Source: a virus
IMG/VR virus record: IMGVR_UViG_3300028146_000036
Coordinates: 1 to 24,275 of that record
Length of the DNA: 24,275 nucleotides
Strand: one strand, 5' to 3'
Shown: positions 5,873-17,395 of the stretch, piece by piece
How positions within the stretch are numbered: position 1 is the stretch's first letter
Layout of the letters: each line of letters begins with the position of its first letter
The notes under the pieces: model-generated
What the model was told of the DNA's origin: nothing
Databases searched by the model: none
What the model saw: the letters and a program-made list of their open reading frames with translations, nothing else
Position numbers and translations under genes: made by a program

Positions 5873-6073
5873 GTGAGTCGGCAACTCGATGTATTGCGTC
5901 GTCGCCTGATGTCGTGGGAACGGGAGTTGCTGACCAATCGCTATGGTATGGCACAGGTCGCGCAGCGGTCGATTGCCGTTCTGCGGCAGGAAATAGCCGA
6001 GGAAGAGCGGCTGGACAGGATACTGCACGGAGAGGACATCGACCGCTCCCCATCAAGCCCCGAGTCGTCATGA
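5873..6073 (+). CDS. Hypothetical coiled-coil protein (GTG start)
   Basis: 66 residues from a GTG codon preceded by GAGGGCGGGG. Helical throughout (RQLDVLRRRLMSWERELL, then AQRSIAVLRQEIAEEERLD), probably a coiled coil, with a polar Ser/Pro tail. An upstream in-frame GTG at 5834, overlapping the nuclease gene by 8 nt, is an alternative start. The stop overlaps the ATG of the winged-helix gene. Confidence 0.55.
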   Translation: MSRQLDVLRRRLMSWERELLTNRYGMAQVAQRSIAVLRQEIAEEERLDRILHGEDIDRSPSSPESS

Positions 6074-6453
6074 CTTCCACGCTGAGATCACGGGTATTCG
6101 GGTACATCCGCGCCCACCCCGGCGCGACGGTCGGTGAGATCGCCGAGGCGCTAGACGTGAGCCTGCCGGCCACCAGCAACGCCGTCCACTCGCTGTCCAA
6201 GGACGGGGCGCTGGAGCGCACGCCGGAATCGCTAAATCGGCGCCTGGGGCGCTGGCGGGTGGTTCCGGAGTTCATGGCGGATTTCCGCAACCCTGCGCCG
6301 CCCAAGCCGGCGGTCAGGCGGGTAAGGCGACCCAATGTTGATCCGCCAAGCTCGAGCGCCGGATGTTTCAAAACGACACCTTGCGACCTCCAGCAACGCT
6401 GGAAAACTCTATGCTGGCCCGAAGCGCCGGATTGGCGCTGGAATGTCCGCTAG
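6070..6453 (+). CDS. Winged-helix DNA-binding protein with duplicated C-terminal motif
   Basis: 127 residues. Residues 1-65 form a MarR/ArsR-like winged helix: RVFGYIRAHPGATVGEIAEA, then LDVSLPATSNAVHSLSKDGA (recognition helix), then RRLGRWRV as the wing. After a Pro-rich linker comes RVRRPNVDPPS (84-94), FKTTPCDLQQRW (100-111) and the terminal DWRWNVR. The same three blocks recur in the frame-broken gene at 7681-8047. This is probably a phage transcriptional or replication regulator; targets are unknown. The start is set by an ATGA overlap. Confidence 0.75.
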   Translation: MTSTLRSRVFGYIRAHPGATVGEIAEALDVSLPATSNAVHSLSKDGALERTPESLNRRLGRWRVVPEFMADFRNPAPPKPAVRRVRRPNVDPPSSSAGCFKTTPCDLQQRWKTLCWPEAPDWRWNVR

Positions 6454-6502
6454 CGAAAGGCCCGCCAATGGCCCTAAAACGGCTCAGGCGCGGTTCTAGG
6501 CC

Positions 6503-6775
6503 GTGGCCGCATTCGATTGGAAACGGCGGCAGGCGTTGCACGCGCTGGAAGGCTCGTACAGGGCTTATCCGGGCAAGTGCTTTACCGGCCATTGCGCCTA
6601 TTGCGGCATCCCCCGACATGGCCGAGTTCATTCGGAGGAGAATCGCTTATGCCCGCGATTGACCACCGCCCGCCCGCGCCTGAGGCCGTCCTGGCGCGTC
6701 CCAGGCGGGTCCACGCGCCACCGGTCTCCGCCTGCGACGGCCGGATCGCGCTCGAGGAGTGCTGGCCGGAGGTGA
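6503..6775 (+). CDS. Putative small zinc-finger protein (3' part uncertain)
   Basis: Open frame from a GTG. The first 50 residues look coding: FDWKRRQALHALEGSYRAYP then GKCFTGHCAYCGIPRHGRVH, with Cys/His spacing of a small zinc finger and a further Cys at NRLCPR. The remaining 40 residues are Arg/Pro/Ser rich and overlap a different, better-looking frame (6649-6783), so the real gene may end earlier or contain a frameshift near 6655. No strong ribosome binding site is visible. Confidence 0.4.
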   Translation: MAAFDWKRRQALHALEGSYRAYPGKCFTGHCAYCGIPRHGRVHSEENRLCPRLTTARPRLRPSWRVPGGSTRHRSPPATAGSRSRSAGRR

Positions 6776-6783
6776 AATCGTGA
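6649..6783 (+). CDS. Hypothetical 44-residue protein
   Basis: Starts at an ATG 9 nt after GGAGGAG and ends in a GTGA overlap with the next gene, whose ribosome binding site (GGAGGT) it contains. Third positions are almost all G or C, better than the competing frame. The product is Pro/Arg rich and ends in LEECWPEVKS. The 18 bp encoding EECWPE (6754-6771) recur exactly at the end of the following gene (7161-7178). Function unknown. Confidence 0.5.
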   Translation: MPAIDHRPPAPEAVLARPRRVHAPPVSACDGRIALEECWPEVKS

Positions 6784-7190
6784 AACCGGATGACGTGGTA
6801 GGCCACAAGACGTTCCACGACGGCAAGGGCGGCTTCCGCCATGAGCCGCTGACCCGCGCGGAGGCTGATTCCGTCATGGCGTGGGTTGAAGCGGCCATCG
6901 CGGAGCGTGCCACCCGCTATCCGACCGCGGAAGACGCGGTTACGGCGATCTGGGGCGCGGTCCAGCGGCTCAAGGAGATGGGCTGGAAAGACCCCGACTA
7001 TGCGGCGACCGACGGCAAAACGCACTCGGTCATCACGGTTGGCTGTTCGGCCATTCTCCGAGCCTATTGCTCTCCAGGAGCGCGGGAAGGCGAACGGTAT
7101 TGGTGGCATCCGGCGCAAGGCGACCTATGGCCGATTGACCCGATCCTCTACTTTGACGACGAGGAGTGCTGGCCGGAGCCGCGGGGATGA
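6780..7190 (+). CDS. Conserved hypothetical phage protein
   Basis: 136 residues from a GTG start with GGAGGT 6 nt upstream. Visible blocks are GHKTFHDGKGGFRHEPLTR near the N-terminus, helical AEADSVMAWVEAAIAERATR (about 27-46), YPTAEDAVTAIWGAVQRLKE (47-66), WKDPDYAATDGK, and a Trp/Tyr-rich C-terminus (YWWHPAQGDLWPIDPILYFD) ending EECWPEPRG. The composition suggests a soluble globular protein, but no family is named with confidence. It ends with an ATGA overlap. Confidence 0.75.
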   Translation: MKPDDVVGHKTFHDGKGGFRHEPLTRAEADSVMAWVEAAIAERATRYPTAEDAVTAIWGAVQRLKEMGWKDPDYAATDGKTHSVITVGCSAILRAYCSPGAREGERYWWHPAQGDLWPIDPILYFDDEECWPEPRG

Positions 7191-7420
7191 GCTGGCGCGA
7201 CCTTGCCGCCCCGATCATTGCCCGGGTGCTGGCCGAGACCGACCGCAGCCGGTATGGCCCGAAACGTGGGGTCGAAGGCTCACCGCTGAAACTGTCACCA
7301 TCACCCAGCCCTTGCCGACAGCCCCGGCCGAGGCGACTGCGGGTCATCAGGGGGAAGACGTTTGCCGGATCGCAACCGGACGCCCCTTACTTACAAGCCG
7401 GGGGTTGCGCGCCAGCATGA
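7187..7420 (+). CDS. Hypothetical protein, probably frame-broken after residue 25
   Basis: 77 codons. The start (SWRDLAAPIIARVLAETDR) resembles the N-terminus of small phage proteins with a DLA-PIIA-VLAET opening. After about GPK the frame becomes Ser/Pro/Arg rich and loses coding character, while coding-like sequence continues in a second frame (VWPETWGRRLTAETVTITQP) and later a third (from 7362). Either the gene is short and the rest is by chance, or one or more indels broke a longer gene. The start is secured by an ATGA overlap. Confidence 0.45.
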   Translation: MSWRDLAAPIIARVLAETDRSRYGPKRGVEGSPLKLSPSPSPCRQPRPRRLRVIRGKTFAGSQPDAPYLQAGGCAPA

Positions 7421-7571
7421 CGCGGCAGCGCGCACGAAACGGGTTAAGCACGTATGGCCTGAGTACCCGCCCCTCATTTCGGGCGACCCGATAAGCGAGA
7501 GCAGCGTGCAGTCCAAAACAGTCACCGTTGGGGCCTTCCTAGTGAGGGCTTGTCTATGCTCTGTCGGGTAG
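7362..7571 (+). CDS. Coding-like frame of uncertain status
   Basis: An open frame from a TTG preceded by GGGGAAG. The peptide (RNRTPLTYKPGVARQHDAAA, then RVKHVWPEYPPLISGDPISE) reads like a real polar protein and its third positions are GC-rich in the first 45 codons. It may be the 3' end of a gene whose 5' part is in another frame (see 7187). No homologue was recognised. The following 110 bases (7572-7680) are non-coding apart from a palindrome. Confidence 0.3.
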   Translation: MPDRNRTPLTYKPGVARQHDAAARTKRVKHVWPEYPPLISGDPISESSVQSKTVTVGAFLVRACLCSVG

Positions 7572-7586
7572 GACTGAGTAGACAAA

Positions 7587-7601
7587 TGTTTACGGTAAAC
7601 A
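7587..7601. promoter_or_regulatory. 15-bp perfect palindrome, operator-like
   Basis: TGTTTACGGTAAACA is a perfect dyad about one central G, sited 80 bp upstream of the gene at 7681 in a short non-coding gap. AT-rich arms in a GC-rich genome suggest a repressor-binding site. No matching second copy was noticed, and no clear promoter elements flank it. Confidence 0.4.
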
Positions 7602-7680
7602 ATGTCAACCAAGCGATGACCGGCTGGCTGCCCTTTCGGAACCGAGCCGAAGCGCCGCCCCGGCGAGAGCGGAAGGGAGC

Positions 7681-8047
7681 ATGAGCAAGCGCGCCAGGAT
7701 GGCTGCCGCCCTGACCGCGCTGGCCCGCCCGGTCTACGCCAAGGACGCCGGCGCTTACCTGCACTGGCACCCCGAGGCCGCCCGCGACGTACTCAGGAGC
7801 ATGGCCCGCGACGGCAAGTGCGCCGGCTGGCAGGACGAGAGGGGGCGCTGGCGGGCCGATCGCCAAAAAGCATACCCATCGAGTCCGGCGCCCCAACGTC
7901 GACCCGCCCAGCGAAACCTTCGGCGGGTTCAAGACCGAGCCTTGTGCGCTGCAACAGGCGTGGCTAGGCTATCTCATCCGCCGCCACCGGGTCATCCCGA
8001 CCCTGCCCGCGGCGGAGGAGCGCGATTGGCGCTGGAGGGTGCGATGA
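7681..8047 (+). pseudogene. Frame-broken winged-helix-like gene related to 6070-6453
   Basis: The ATG (after GGAAGGGAG) opens a 60-codon N-terminal domain ending RGRWRADR. At a run of five A (7865-7869) the coding sense passes to the +1 frame, which reads QKHTHRVRRPNVDPPS, FKTEPCALQQAW and ends RDWRWRVR, the same blocks as the C-terminus of the 6070 protein. Its TGA then overlaps the next ATG (8044) as ATGA, exactly as a normal operon junction. Deleting one A gives an intact 121-residue protein. The unshifted frame would fuse it to the next gene, an artefact. Either an assembly homopolymer error or a real mutation. Confidence 0.75.
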
Positions 8048-8214
8048 TCTGGAACGGGTTTCTGTGGGGACTAGGCTTTGTGCTGGCGCTGATCGCGGTC
8101 AAGATCGTGGCGGTGCTGATGGCGGTTGCTGGCCGTGCCATCCAGCGCAAGGCCGATCCGCTAGGGACGGCGCTACGCGAGTATGGCGAGGCGCTGACCC
8201 GCAGGCGGGACTGA
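8044..8214 (+). CDS. Small membrane protein
   Basis: 56 residues: MIWNGFLWGLGFVLALIAVK begins a hydrophobic segment that continues through IVAVLMAVAGRAI, then a basic, soluble tail (QRKADPLGTALREYGEALTR). One long or two short transmembrane helices are likely. The ATG overlaps the corrected stop of the frame-broken gene (ATGA) and the stop overlaps the next start (TGATG). Function unknown. Confidence 0.6.
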   Translation: MIWNGFLWGLGFVLALIAVKIVAVLMAVAGRAIQRKADPLGTALREYGEALTRRRD

Positions 8215-11800: not shown

Positions 11801-12343
11801 ATGAGTCTTGGGCGGATTACCCGGCAATGCGAACTGTGCTCGACGCGGTTCGTCAGTTACCGTTCGAGTGGTCAAGTTCGTTGGTGCTCGGACCTGTGTA
11901 GGTTCTGGGGTCGGGTCGAGGTTCACGGGACAGACGAGTGTTGGGTGTGGACGGCGGCGAGGACGGGGAAGGGGTATGGCAAGATCAGCATTCGTGCGGT
12001 CGAGACGAACGCGCATCGTTTAGCCTACGAGATGTTTCATGGCTCGGTTCCGTCAGGACTGATGGTTTGCCACCATTGCGACAACCGGCTATGCGTGAAC
12101 CCGGCGCACCTGTTCGTGGGCACGGCCAAGGACAACGCTGCCGATATGCTGCGCAAAGGCCGGCACGCCAAACAGAAGGAGACCGGTATTGCCGATGCTT
12201 GGCGGGAAGGAGCTTGCTATCTCGGGCGCGCCAAGGAGGCTGATCCGGGGACGGGTGAACAGTTCTGCCCGGTTTGCCGCCGCGAGAAAGAGCGCCGCAA
12301 GAACCTGAAACGCAATGCGCAACGAGCGCGAGTGTCTACCTGA
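11801..12343 (+). CDS. HNH endonuclease (HNH_3-like) next to the terminase
   Basis: 180 residues. N-terminal zinc ribbon ([18 protein letters not shown]10, C13, C29, C33), then [56 protein letters not shown] and [12 protein letters not shown], the HNH core with H72, H91, H92, N100 and H103. A C-terminal Cys pair ([13 protein letters not shown]) may bind zinc or DNA. HNH proteins beside TerL often help terminase cut DNA; this fold is also used by free-standing homing nucleases. The start at 11801 is close behind the -10 box; the stop overlaps the TerL ATG (TGATG). Confidence 0.85.
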
Positions 12344-14376
12344 TGGCGGTTGACACTGAATTGCTCGCTCGGATTTCGGCTGATCGCGCCTTGGCGAGTG
12401 TGCTCCTGTTCGCCCATCGGCATCCGCAGGCGGAGGCGCCGATGCACATCGAGATCATGGATTTGTTGCGCGCGGCGGACGAGTTCGTGGTGATCGAGGC
12501 GTTTCGGGAGGCGGGGAAGACGACCAAGGCCGAGGAGCACATGATTCTCGCCGGCTGCTTCGGCAATTATCACTATGGGCTCATCATTGGCGAGACCTAT
12601 GAGAAGGCGTGCGAGCGGCTGGGAAGCATTGCCCATGAGTGTTTGACCAACACCGCTTTGCATGAAGTGTTCGGTGGCCCGGTGCTGGCGAAGCGCAGTA
12701 TCGAGAACAAGGTGTGGTTTCGGTCGGGGACGCTGTTGCAGGCGTGGGGGTGGGATCAGGAGCTCCAATCCTTCAAGTGGCTCACCTGGCGGCCGGATTT
12801 TGCGTTCCTGGACGATGTGGAGAATCCGGAGCGGGTCCGGGATCGGGCTGCGGTCAACGCCTCGATGACCAAGCTGCACAACGACCTCATCCCGGCGATG
12901 GACAAGGAGCGCCGCAAGGTGGTGATCAGCCAGACCCGGCGGGCGGAGGACTGCATGGTGACCCGCTTCGCCGGCAACCCGGACTGGCTCTACCGCGGTT
13001 ACCCGATCTGCAACGGCGACCCGGAGGATGAGCGCACCCTCGCCACCTGGCCGCAGCGCTATCCGATGGAATGGGTGAGGGCGGAGAAACGAAGGTTCGA
13101 GCGCGCCGGGATGCTATCGTCGTTCCTGCAAAGCTACATGCTGCAGGCGAGCAGTGCCGAGGGCAAGCCGTTCAAGGAGGACATGCTGCAAGCCTTGGAA
13201 GTGAGCCCGTGGCACTGGATGCCACGGTTTGCGATCTACGATCCGTCGAGGTCTACCCGTGAAAAAAGAGTTAGGCGTGCTGGAGTCGATGAGGTTAAGT
13301 CTGACCGAACCGGAAAGGTTGTCGTTAGCCGCCTTGGTAGCCAAATCCTCGTACATGAGTCTTCGGGCAATTACTGGGCCCCAAACGAGCTCGTCGCCGA
13401 CCTGTTCGCCACCCAAGCCAACCACCGCCCCGCCAAGATCGGGATCGAAAAGAACTCCCTAGACGATTGGCTCTTGCAGCCGATCCGGCTTGAAATGCTG
13501 CGCCGGGGCATCCCGCTCCCCTTGCAGACCCTCAACGCCCCGCAGGACCGCAGCAAGGACGAGTTCATCCTCGGGCTGCAGCCCTTCGCCACCGCCAAGG
13601 ACATTGTGCTGGTCGGCGGCAAGATGGCACACCCCCAGCTCGTCGCGGAATGGTGCAATTTTCCCTCCGGCACCCGCGACGTGATGAACGCGCTGGCGTA
13701 TGCTCTGAAGATGTTCACCGGGAGCCCACTCTATGAAGACTTTGGTGGCGCGAACCTTGGCGAAGCGCCGAGCCCGCGAGCGGGTGAGGAAGTCATTGTT
13801 GGCTGGCAAGCCAACCCCGCCGAAGTGGTCGCCGTCGCCCTCCTGCGCGAAGGACGCCGTTTATGTGTGGGGGGAGATTGGTCTGCCACTGGCGCCCTAG
13901 CCGATGCGGTCAAGACCATCGCCTTCGAGCTTCGTGCTTCGTTCCCAAGAGCGAGTCTGCAATGCTGGGTGCCCGCCGACACCTTCGACCAGTGGCAGAG
14001 GATCGCTCTAGTGCCTGCGCTGCGCGCCGAGCACCTGACCCCTTACCGCGGCGAGCACGTCGCTCTGGCCCGCGGCTGCCTCGCCGAGCGCATCCGCACC
14101 AAGTGGCATGGGATGCAGCTTCTTACGGTCGACAAACGCGCGGCGCTCACCCTCAATGCCCTTTCCACCGGCTACGCCCTGACCGTCGAAAAGGGGGCTC
14201 GCCAGAGTCAGGAGCCGGAGCCCGGCCTCTCTCGGCTGGCCGCCGAGGCTCTCGAATGCGCGGTGATGGCGCTCGACCGCCAGGAGTCCGCCACGGTCAT
14301 GCCCAAGGGGGCCAACATCGCCTACAGTCCCTCGGGCGTACCCTACGTCAGCGCCAACCCCAGAGCACGCGTTTGA
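12343..14376 (+). CDS. terL: Terminase large subunit with long C-terminal extension
   Basis: 677 residues. ATPase: Walker A-like FREAGKTT (about 54-61, with Glu-Ala before GKT instead of a Gly/Ser-rich loop) and Walker B plus catalytic Glu FAFLDDVEN (153-161). RNase H-like nuclease: FAIYDPS (D300), IGIEKN (E369) and RDVMNALAYAL (D446). It drives DNA into the prohead and cuts the concatemer. Residues about 480-677 are an extra domain (VCVGGDWS-like LCVGGDWSATGALADAVKTI, WVPADTFDQWQRIALVPALR) that may be a second RNase H-like fold. The start is set by TGATG overlap with HNH. No small subunit was seen nearby. Confidence 0.92.
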   Translation: MAVDTELLARISADRALASVLLFAHRHPQAEAPMHIEIMDLLRAADEFVVIEAFREAGKTTKAEEHMILAGCFGNYHYGLIIGETYEKACERLGSIAHECLTNTALHEVFGGPVLAKRSIENKVWFRSGTLLQAWGWDQELQSFKWLTWRPDFAFLDDVENPERVRDRAAVNASMTKLHNDLIPAMDKERRKVVISQTRRAEDCMVTRFAGNPDWLYRGYPICNGDPEDERTLATWPQRYPMEWVRAEKRRFERAGMLSSFLQSYMLQASSAEGKPFKEDMLQALEVSPWHWMPRFAIYDPSRSTREKRVRRAGVDEVKSDRTGKVVVSRLGSQILVHESSGNYWAPNELVADLFATQANHRPAKIGIEKNSLDDWLLQPIRLEMLRRGIPLPLQTLNAPQDRSKDEFILGLQPFATAKDIVLVGGKMAHPQLVAEWCNFPSGTRDVMNALAYALKMFTGSPLYEDFGGANLGEAPSPRAGEEVIVGWQANPAEVVAVALLREGRRLCVGGDWSATGALADAVKTIAFELRASFPRASLQCWVPADTFDQWQRIALVPALRAEHLTPYRGEHVALARGCLAERIRTKWHGMQLLTVDKRAALTLNALSTGYALTVEKGARQSQEPEPGLSRLAAEALECAVMALDRQESATVMPKGANIAYSPSGVPYVSANPRARV

Positions 14377-14979: not shown

Positions 14980-15189
14980 ATGAAGAAAAAGGGTGCCGTC
15001 AAGGCCGTGCGCGCGCCTTCGATGACGGCGGAAGATCGCTCATGGCGGGCGCGCGATGATCTGAGAACGTTGACCCGGGCGCAGGAAATTTCCGCCGACA
15101 AGGTGCGCATGGCGGCGGCGAAACGTGAAGCCGCGAAGCAGCAGGCGAGCCTCGCGCGCATCTCCAAGCTTGCGGGCAAGCGGATCTGA
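14980..15189 (+). CDS. Small basic helical protein before portal
   Basis: 69 residues starting directly after the previous stop. It is basic and helical (DRSWRARDDLRTLTRAQEIS, KVRMAAAKREAAKQQASLAR). Likely a coiled-coil or DNA-associated protein. Its stop TGA is followed at once by the portal GTG (TGATGTGG). Confidence 0.6.
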   Translation: MKKKGAVKAVRAPSMTAEDRSWRARDDLRTLTRAQEISADKVRMAAAKREAAKQQASLARISKLAGKRI

Positions 15190-15190
15190 T

Positions 15191-17395
15191 GTGGCCGTCG
15201 ACACGCCCAAGAAGGGCCGCGGGTACAAGCCGAAGGAAGGCAAGGACCGCGAGCTAGAGTCGGCCTCTACCGACTCGAAGGCCGACCCGATCGAGAATTG
15301 GGCCGAGCAGCAGGACTCCCCGGCCTACGAGGCCGCGCTCAAGCTCTACAAGCTCGTCAACAAGGCGTACCAGAATAAGGACGAGCAGTACGACGACCGC
15401 ATCGAGGAATACTGGAACGCCTACAATGCGATCCCCGATGCGAACCAGCAGTACATCGGCAACTCCTCGGGTTACATCCCCGCCATCCGCGACGCCATCA
15501 ACGCCCGCGCCAAGCGCGCGTTGAAGCAGTTGTTTCCCGCGAACATGAAGCACGTCGAGGCCGTGGCCTCGGACGGGCGCACGCCCTATACGCAGCTTTC
15601 ACTGCTCGAGCATTACATCCGCAAGACCAAGCTGCGCTCGATCGTGCGCACCGACCTGATCGCGGGCGATGTCACGGGACAGTGGAACCTGATGGTCGAT
15701 TGGACTTCCTCGACCTTCAACATCAAGAAGCTCGTCAAGCGCAATCCGCTGCTGCAGCAGATCGACGGCGAAAGTGTGGAAGACCTCGAAATCGAAGATC
15801 CCACTGCCGACGAGGAAGAGGACATCGACGAGGAAACGGTCGAGGAGCAAGGCCCCGAGATAGTCGACTTCGCCACCGAGGATCTGGCGGTCGTGCCTCC
15901 AACCTGCACCGACTTGCAGAAGGCGAAGGCGGTGTCCATCAAGCTGCGCATGAGCGCGGAGAAGGTCAGGGAACTGGTCGACGAGGGTGTCTTCATCCTG
16001 CCCCCGAACACCGACATCGAGGAGTTCTGCAAGCCAGATCAGTCGCGCGACCGCAAGAACCCGCAGAAGAAGGCCACGGGCGATGCCGGCATCAAGACCG
16101 AAGGCACCAACAAGCACGCCGTCATCTATCAGGTCTACTCCAAGCTCGATCTCGGCAGCGAGACCAAAGACGACGCCATCATCTACTACGCCGGGGAAAC
16201 CGAGATCGTCGGCATCATCAGGAACCCCTTGTGGAGCGGCAAACGCCCGATCCTGTCCAAGCCGGTCGAACGGAAACAAGGCAGTTTCTTCGGTAGCAGC
16301 AAGATCGAGCCGGTGAAATTTTTGGGCTGGCAGTTGAACGACTTTTGGAATCAGGGCATGGATTCGGCGATGTATTCCTTGCAGCCGATCTGGGCCGTCG
16401 ATCCCCTGAAATGCCCGCAGTGGATGAACCTGACGATGGGCTTGGCCGCGATGTGGCCGATCGACCCCAATAGCGTCAAGCAGATCACCCAGACCCAACT
16501 GTGGAAGGACGCCGCCGGCATCTGCGATTTGATCAAGCGCCAGATCTGGGAGTCGATGGATGTCAACGAGATGATGATGGGCCGGATGCCCGCCGGCAGG
16601 AAGAACAATCAGCTCATGGGGGCGATGAGCCAGGAGCAGCAGGTCAACATCACCGATCACGCCTCGCGCTACGAGGAGGAAATGCTCAACCCGCTGCTGG
16701 AGCTCCTGTTCGAGTTCGACCAGCAGTACCGCACCTCGGACCTGATGATCGAGACCCGGGGCGAGATCGGGGCCAAGGCGGCGCTAGAAGTGATCCCGCC
16801 GCAGCAATGGGGCGAGCGCTACTTCTTCCGCTGGACCGGCACCGAGTTCATGCTCTCGATCCAGCGCGGGCAGCAGCAGATCGCGCTCATGAACGTGTTG
16901 AAGGGCATCCCGCCCGCCCAGTTGAACGGGCGCACCTTCGACGCCACCCCGATCCTCGAATCGCTGGTCGAGAACCTGTTCGGCCCCGAGATGGCGCCGC
17001 GCATCCTCGTCGACAAGCGCAACAGCTATCGCATTGACCCGGACATCGAGAACGAGATGCTGGCGAACGGTTTCGAGGTGCAAGTGCACGAAGCCGACGA
17101 CGATCCCATGCACCTGCAGGCGCACATGCGCGGGGCGAGCCTCGCGACCGACCCGCTCGGGCTGTTCAAGTCGCACATGGGCATGCACATGGCGCAGATG
17201 CAGAGGAAGCGCGAGATGGAAATGATGCAGCAAGCTCCGAAAGGAGTGCCCGGCGGCCCCGGCGGGGCGGGACCGGGCGTACCCGGCGGGCCGAAGCCCG
17301 GGGCCATGCCCGCGCCGGGTGGGCCGAGGCCGGCGCAACAGCCCGCTGGTTCGATTCAAACCGATAATATGTTAGGGGCGCCCGGACGTGGATAA
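15191..17395 (+). CDS. Portal protein (large, podophage-like)
   Basis: 734 residues from a GTG start. Portal-type segments are AIRDAINARAKRALKQLFPA, TDLIAGDVTGQWNLMVDWTS, RPILSKPVERKQGSFFGSSK, FLGWQLNDFWNQGMDSAMYS and MMMGRMPAGRKNNQ with EEEMLNPLLELLFEF (stem and core helices). An acidic insert (DPTADEEEDIDEETVEEQ) lies near residue 205. The C-terminus is a Gly/Pro-rich tail (GGPGGAGPGVPGG) ending MLGAPGRG. Portals form the dodecameric DNA channel at the capsid vertex. Length exceeds lambda-like portals and fits short-tailed phages. The last 15 codons are unusually AT-rich, matching the following HNH gene. Confidence 0.85.
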   Translation: MAVDTPKKGRGYKPKEGKDRELESASTDSKADPIENWAEQQDSPAYEAALKLYKLVNKAYQNKDEQYDDRIEEYWNAYNAIPDANQQYIGNSSGYIPAIRDAINARAKRALKQLFPANMKHVEAVASDGRTPYTQLSLLEHYIRKTKLRSIVRTDLIAGDVTGQWNLMVDWTSSTFNIKKLVKRNPLLQQIDGESVEDLEIEDPTADEEEDIDEETVEEQGPEIVDFATEDLAVVPPTCTDLQKAKAVSIKLRMSAEKVRELVDEGVFILPPNTDIEEFCKPDQSRDRKNPQKKATGDAGIKTEGTNKHAVIYQVYSKLDLGSETKDDAIIYYAGETEIVGIIRNPLWSGKRPILSKPVERKQGSFFGSSKIEPVKFLGWQLNDFWNQGMDSAMYSLQPIWAVDPLKCPQWMNLTMGLAAMWPIDPNSVKQITQTQLWKDAAGICDLIKRQIWESMDVNEMMMGRMPAGRKNNQLMGAMSQEQQVNITDHASRYEEEMLNPLLELLFEFDQQYRTSDLMIETRGEIGAKAALEVIPPQQWGERYFFRWTGTEFMLSIQRGQQQIALMNVLKGIPPAQLNGRTFDATPILESLVENLFGPEMAPRILVDKRNSYRIDPDIENEMLANGFEVQVHEADDDPMHLQAHMRGASLATDPLGLFKSHMGMHMAQMQRKREMEMMQQAPKGVPGGPGGAGPGVPGGPKPGAMPAPGGPRPAQQPAGSIQTDNMLGAPGRG
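17369..17395 (+). repeat. Recoded portal 3' end, partner of 17808-17834
   Basis: These nine codons encode MLGAPGRG and stop. The same peptide ends the next gene at 17808-17834, but every codon after Met is a different synonym and the stop changes from TAA to TGA (15 of 24 sense bases identical). A simple duplication would keep the third positions. Confidence 0.8.

Follow-up and report, generated by a model that had tools for sequence, protein, structure and literature searches.

A conserved tail on two putative DNA-binding heads of an uncultured phage, with one of the two genes broken by a +1 shift of frame

We find that two genes of an uncultured phage encode small putative DNA-binding proteins in which one C-terminal tail is joined to two different heads, and that in one of these genes the reading frame changes between head and tail. 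A model in which 7681-8047 is one gene broken by a +1 shift, with the 177-codon open reading frame (7681-8214) as a false join to the gene that follows, is well supported by sequence comparison. The tail itself is real, shared, exchanged and unnamed; it is known from three proteins of one phage group, two of which lie in the window.

By the window we mean the whole stretch of DNA that was analysed, a 24,275-base virus record from IMG/VR that carries phage genes. Its nearest relatives, reached through the terminase, are other uncultured IMG/VR contigs, among them G002 (IMGVR_UViG_3300024181_000001), whose terminase matches that of the window at 94-97% identity, depending on the segment; the genome contigs that we searched contain no relative of the tail and none of the terminase. 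The features used below, each with the evidence for it where this applies, are:

6070-6453, + strand: intact gene for a 127-aa protein, a MarR-type winged helix-turn-helix head followed by the shared C-terminal tail (Pfam MarR_2, tail profile)
6316-6450, + strand: tail module of the 6070 protein, 45 aa (identity to two other tails, pN against pS)
7681-7851, + strand: head part of the disrupted gene in frame 1, resembling a winged helix-turn-helix (79% amino-acid and about 81% DNA identity to the G002 head)
7852-7879, + strand: linker within which the frame shifts by +1 (head homology to about 7852, tail homology from about 7880 in the next frame)
7880-8047, + strand: tail module of the disrupted gene, frame 2, stop TGA at 8045-8047 (tblastn, codon score)
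8044-8214, + strand: separate next gene, 56 aa with one hydrophobic stretch, ATGA overlap (codon score)
about 12340-14376: terminase large subunit
15125-17395: portal/head-tail adaptor

Further phage genes in the window encode collagen-like tail fibre proteins, a RecE-like exonuclease and an Erf-like annealing protein. The last two are adjoined by a gene on the minus strand (1643-1864) for a 73-aa helix-turn-helix protein of the LuxR/GerE type (Pfam GerE, E 4e-13). Between the two tailed genes, a block of DNA at 7376-7558 is 89-91% identical in G001 and G002, above most neighbouring genes, and a partial inverted copy of it lies at 28764-28796 of G002. Changes in the open reading frame over this block, judged by eye, mostly alter amino acids, so it is probably noncoding; Rfam gives no match and the predicted RNA folding is not unusual, and the block may be a DNA element for regulation or replication.

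The tail is about 45 residues long and is marked by three common motifs, RVRRPNVDPPS, FKTxPCxLQQxW and DWRWxVR, all of which are present in both window proteins, as the first-pass annotation of this DNA had claimed. The 6070 protein has RVRRPNVDPPS at 6319, FKTTPCDLQQRW at 6367 and DWRWNVR with the stop at 6430-6453; the frame starting at 7862 has RVRRPNVDPPS at 7880, FKTEPCALQQAW at 7928 and DWRWRVR with its TGA at 8024-8047. When the 6070 tail is compared with the rest of the window by tblastn, the region 7880-8044 scores 57.8 bits (E 3e-15), while the best score of the same query in 200 dinucleotide-shuffled windows is 26.9 bits. At the level of codons, 8 of the 11 in RVRRPNVDPPS differ between the two window tails and every one of these differences is synonymous; over the 45 aligned codons of the two tails pS is 0.86 and pN 0.25. 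Among all three tails pN is 0.21-0.31 and pS 0.75-0.86 (pN 0.21-0.25 and pS 0.75-0.86 for the 6070 tail against the other two), and the other two frames of the tail DNA have no comparable excess of silent changes. Judged by these rates the tail frame is under purifying selection, which contradicts the lack of conservation in the +1 frame that the first-pass annotation had named as a way for its own reading to fail.

In the 6070 protein the head is readily assigned, with Pfam MarR_2 (PF12802) matching residues 6-58 above the Pfam gathering score (E 7e-10, 39.4 bits against 27). The match is limited to these residues, and the other roughly 65, linker and tail, are without a family match. The tail at 6316-6450 scores E 1.2e-32 with a three-sequence tail profile that has this tail among its own members. 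Searched alone, the tail is unmatched in Pfam, PHROGs, NCBIfam and PDB sequences and has no significant match in INPHARED or PLSDB. In viral contigs, neither the corrected protein nor the alignment of the two window tails nor the degenerate pattern FKTxPCxLQQxxW finds a match, and the three-tail and head alignments find G002 again and nothing else. It is among the contigs found through the terminase that the gene appears intact. Two matches of the tail profile in G003, with E 0.03 and E 6 and a stop in both, were taken as chance. L004 resembles only the 6070 helix-turn-helix and has no tail.

How is the second tail expressed, if its frame is not that of the head upstream of it? In the tail frame, between the last stop (7712) and the first motif, there is no ATG, GTG or TTG and only one ATC (at 7859), so translation of the tail would have to begin at the start codon of the head and then change frame, and an independent start of the tail is unlikely. 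The codon score, given in bits per codon and judged against the contig's long genes, is +0.32 in the head frame and +0.33 in the gene at 8044. The tail scores +0.09 when read in its own frame and -0.63 when read in the 177-codon frame, whose codon usage over the tail is non-coding. The stop of the tail frame (TGA, 8045-8047) overlaps the ATG at 8044 as ATGA, the arrangement that the first-pass annotation had described, and the 8044 gene shares the frame of the head by chance. Where the shift itself lies is less sharply defined. That annotation had placed a missed shift at an A5 run (7865-7869), and the shift holds up; the run is one candidate among several, and the change of frame may lie anywhere in about 7852-7879, because head homology ends at about 7852, tail homology begins at about 7880 and the linkers of the compared genes differ.

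The intact counterpart is found in G002, where 37571-37939 encodes one 123-aa protein with a 7681-type head and the tail in a single uninterrupted frame, joined by a linker that differs from the window's in sequence and length. No relative keeps the 177-codon frame across the tail; its conservation as one protein had been the other observation named as able to overturn the claim that this frame joins two genes. Together with the codon score, the single frame in G002 bears that claim out. At the matching position G002 lacks a gene of the 8044 type. What follows the intact tailed protein there (L009 of G002, after 6447) is a gene with no relation to the one at 8044 in the window, so by this comparison the neighbourhood is mosaic too.

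The first-pass annotation had also held that the N-terminal halves differ, and by family they do: Pfam MarR and MarR_2 match neither the window's 7681 protein nor the G002 protein, and a profile comparison of the two heads finds no similarity. Both heads nevertheless look like winged helix-turn-helix domains. For the 7681 type, the model of the G002 protein has three helices and a wing in the head (moderate confidence), and the G002 head resembles Pfam EutK_C (PF16365) below the curated cut-off (E 1.2e-4, 22.5 bits against 27.5). One C-terminal module on different putative DNA-binding heads, as had been proposed, is therefore what we see.

Comparison of the syntenic genes in the window and G002 reveals that head and tail have different histories. 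In the head pS is 0.33, and in the tail it is 0.80, which is saturated (Fisher p 1.5e-4, computed on rounded counts). The tails group against synteny. Without a gap, the G002 tail is identical to that of the 6070 protein at 33/45 residues; with its syntenic counterpart it agrees less well, at 25/45, and the window's version of that tail carries an insert of 11 residues. The two window tails share 30/45. At the head-tail border, the two window genes have a perfect match of 14 bp (6246-6259 and 7842-7855). Because the silent sites of the tail are saturated while those of the head are moderately diverged, and because the tails group against synteny, head and tail have most likely been exchanged by recombination, that is, by phage mosaicism. 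Higher divergence of the tail could come in part from faster tail evolution; this is less likely given the saturation, since protein change alone is not expected to saturate the silent sites of the same gene.

We now weigh other readings of the shift. Taken at face value, the 177-codon frame is open as a single ORF and could be one genuine protein that resembles the tail by chance. We regard this as refuted, with next to no chance left to it: the tail match far exceeds that in the shuffles, the 11-residue motif has changed only synonymously, the frame scores as non-coding over the tail, and an intact tailed relative exists. A programmed +1 shift at the linker would use the same open frame differently, yielding the tailed protein when it occurs and, when it does not, a 177-aa fusion of the head to the membrane segment of the 8044 gene. 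The frame open through 8214 and the conserved tail frame are both compatible with this, and the other long ORFs of the contig are intact, so that indel error is not the rule. Yet the unshifted stretch is clearly non-coding by codon usage, and no slippery-site shift is conserved, the sole relative needing none and reading in one frame; we also recognise in the linker no +1 shift motif of the kinds known to us. Programmed shifting is accordingly improbable, and its most elaborate form, in which the phage uses the gene both for a soluble regulator with the tail and for a membrane-tethered fusion of the putative DNA-binding head, is more improbable still.

A real and recent disabling mutation is a far more serious candidate, and we put it at a little under an even chance. 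It forms one branch of the reading that we prefer, a consensus error being the other. The phage would then carry a broken copy and rely on the 6070 protein with the same tail. That a second tail-bearing protein is present agrees with this, as does the apparently good quality of the contig, in which ORFs of some 700 and 750 aa run without interruption; against it, the disrupted tail has no sign of decay.

The account that we consider quite probable as a whole is the following. A single gene at 7681-8047 would have its frame broken by a +1 shift in the linker, either by a consensus error or by a recent real disabling mutation, and the 177-codon ORF would join it falsely to the 8044 gene. Its product and the 6070 protein would be small putative DNA-binding phage proteins with one tail on two winged helix-turn-helix heads, and comparison suggests that heads and tails recombine as separate modules. 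Most likely the head would pick the DNA site and the tail would be a common docking or oligomerisation part that contacts the same partner, so that exchange of modules may rewire control with the partner kept. The docking role is a guess, because AlphaFold does not model the tail reliably (pLDDT mostly below 50) and comparison of the model with known folds yields no significant match. What follows from the comparison is the correction of a false gene call and a new small tail module that appears to move by recombination among the helix-turn-helix heads of one phage lineage; the case also illustrates clearly how family searches miss a conserved domain when a metagenome contig contains a one-base shift.

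Among known systems, the MarR-family winged helix-turn-helix regulators (MarR_2, PHROG 1687) resemble the 6070 protein in its head (residues 6-58). Full MarR proteins have additional dimerisation helices after the winged helix-turn-helix, whereas in the 6070 protein only the winged helix-turn-helix matches and a tail without a match in the families searched comes next. The C-terminal domain of EutK is a helix-turn-helix-type domain; the sub-threshold resemblance of the G002 head to it does not make that head a member by this test, and unlike EutK the 7681-type protein has no microcompartment domain. The window genes fit a known kind, mosaic phage regulators. Phage proteins that are otherwise unrelated exchange parts with one another, and transcription regulation is listed among the classes where this is common (Smug et al. 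2023, PMC10684548). As in that work, protein parts in phages appear to have been exchanged here; in contrast to it, the part is a small tail without a name, carried by helix-turn-helix proteins in an uncultured group of phages, and the exchange is seen both within one genome and between two.
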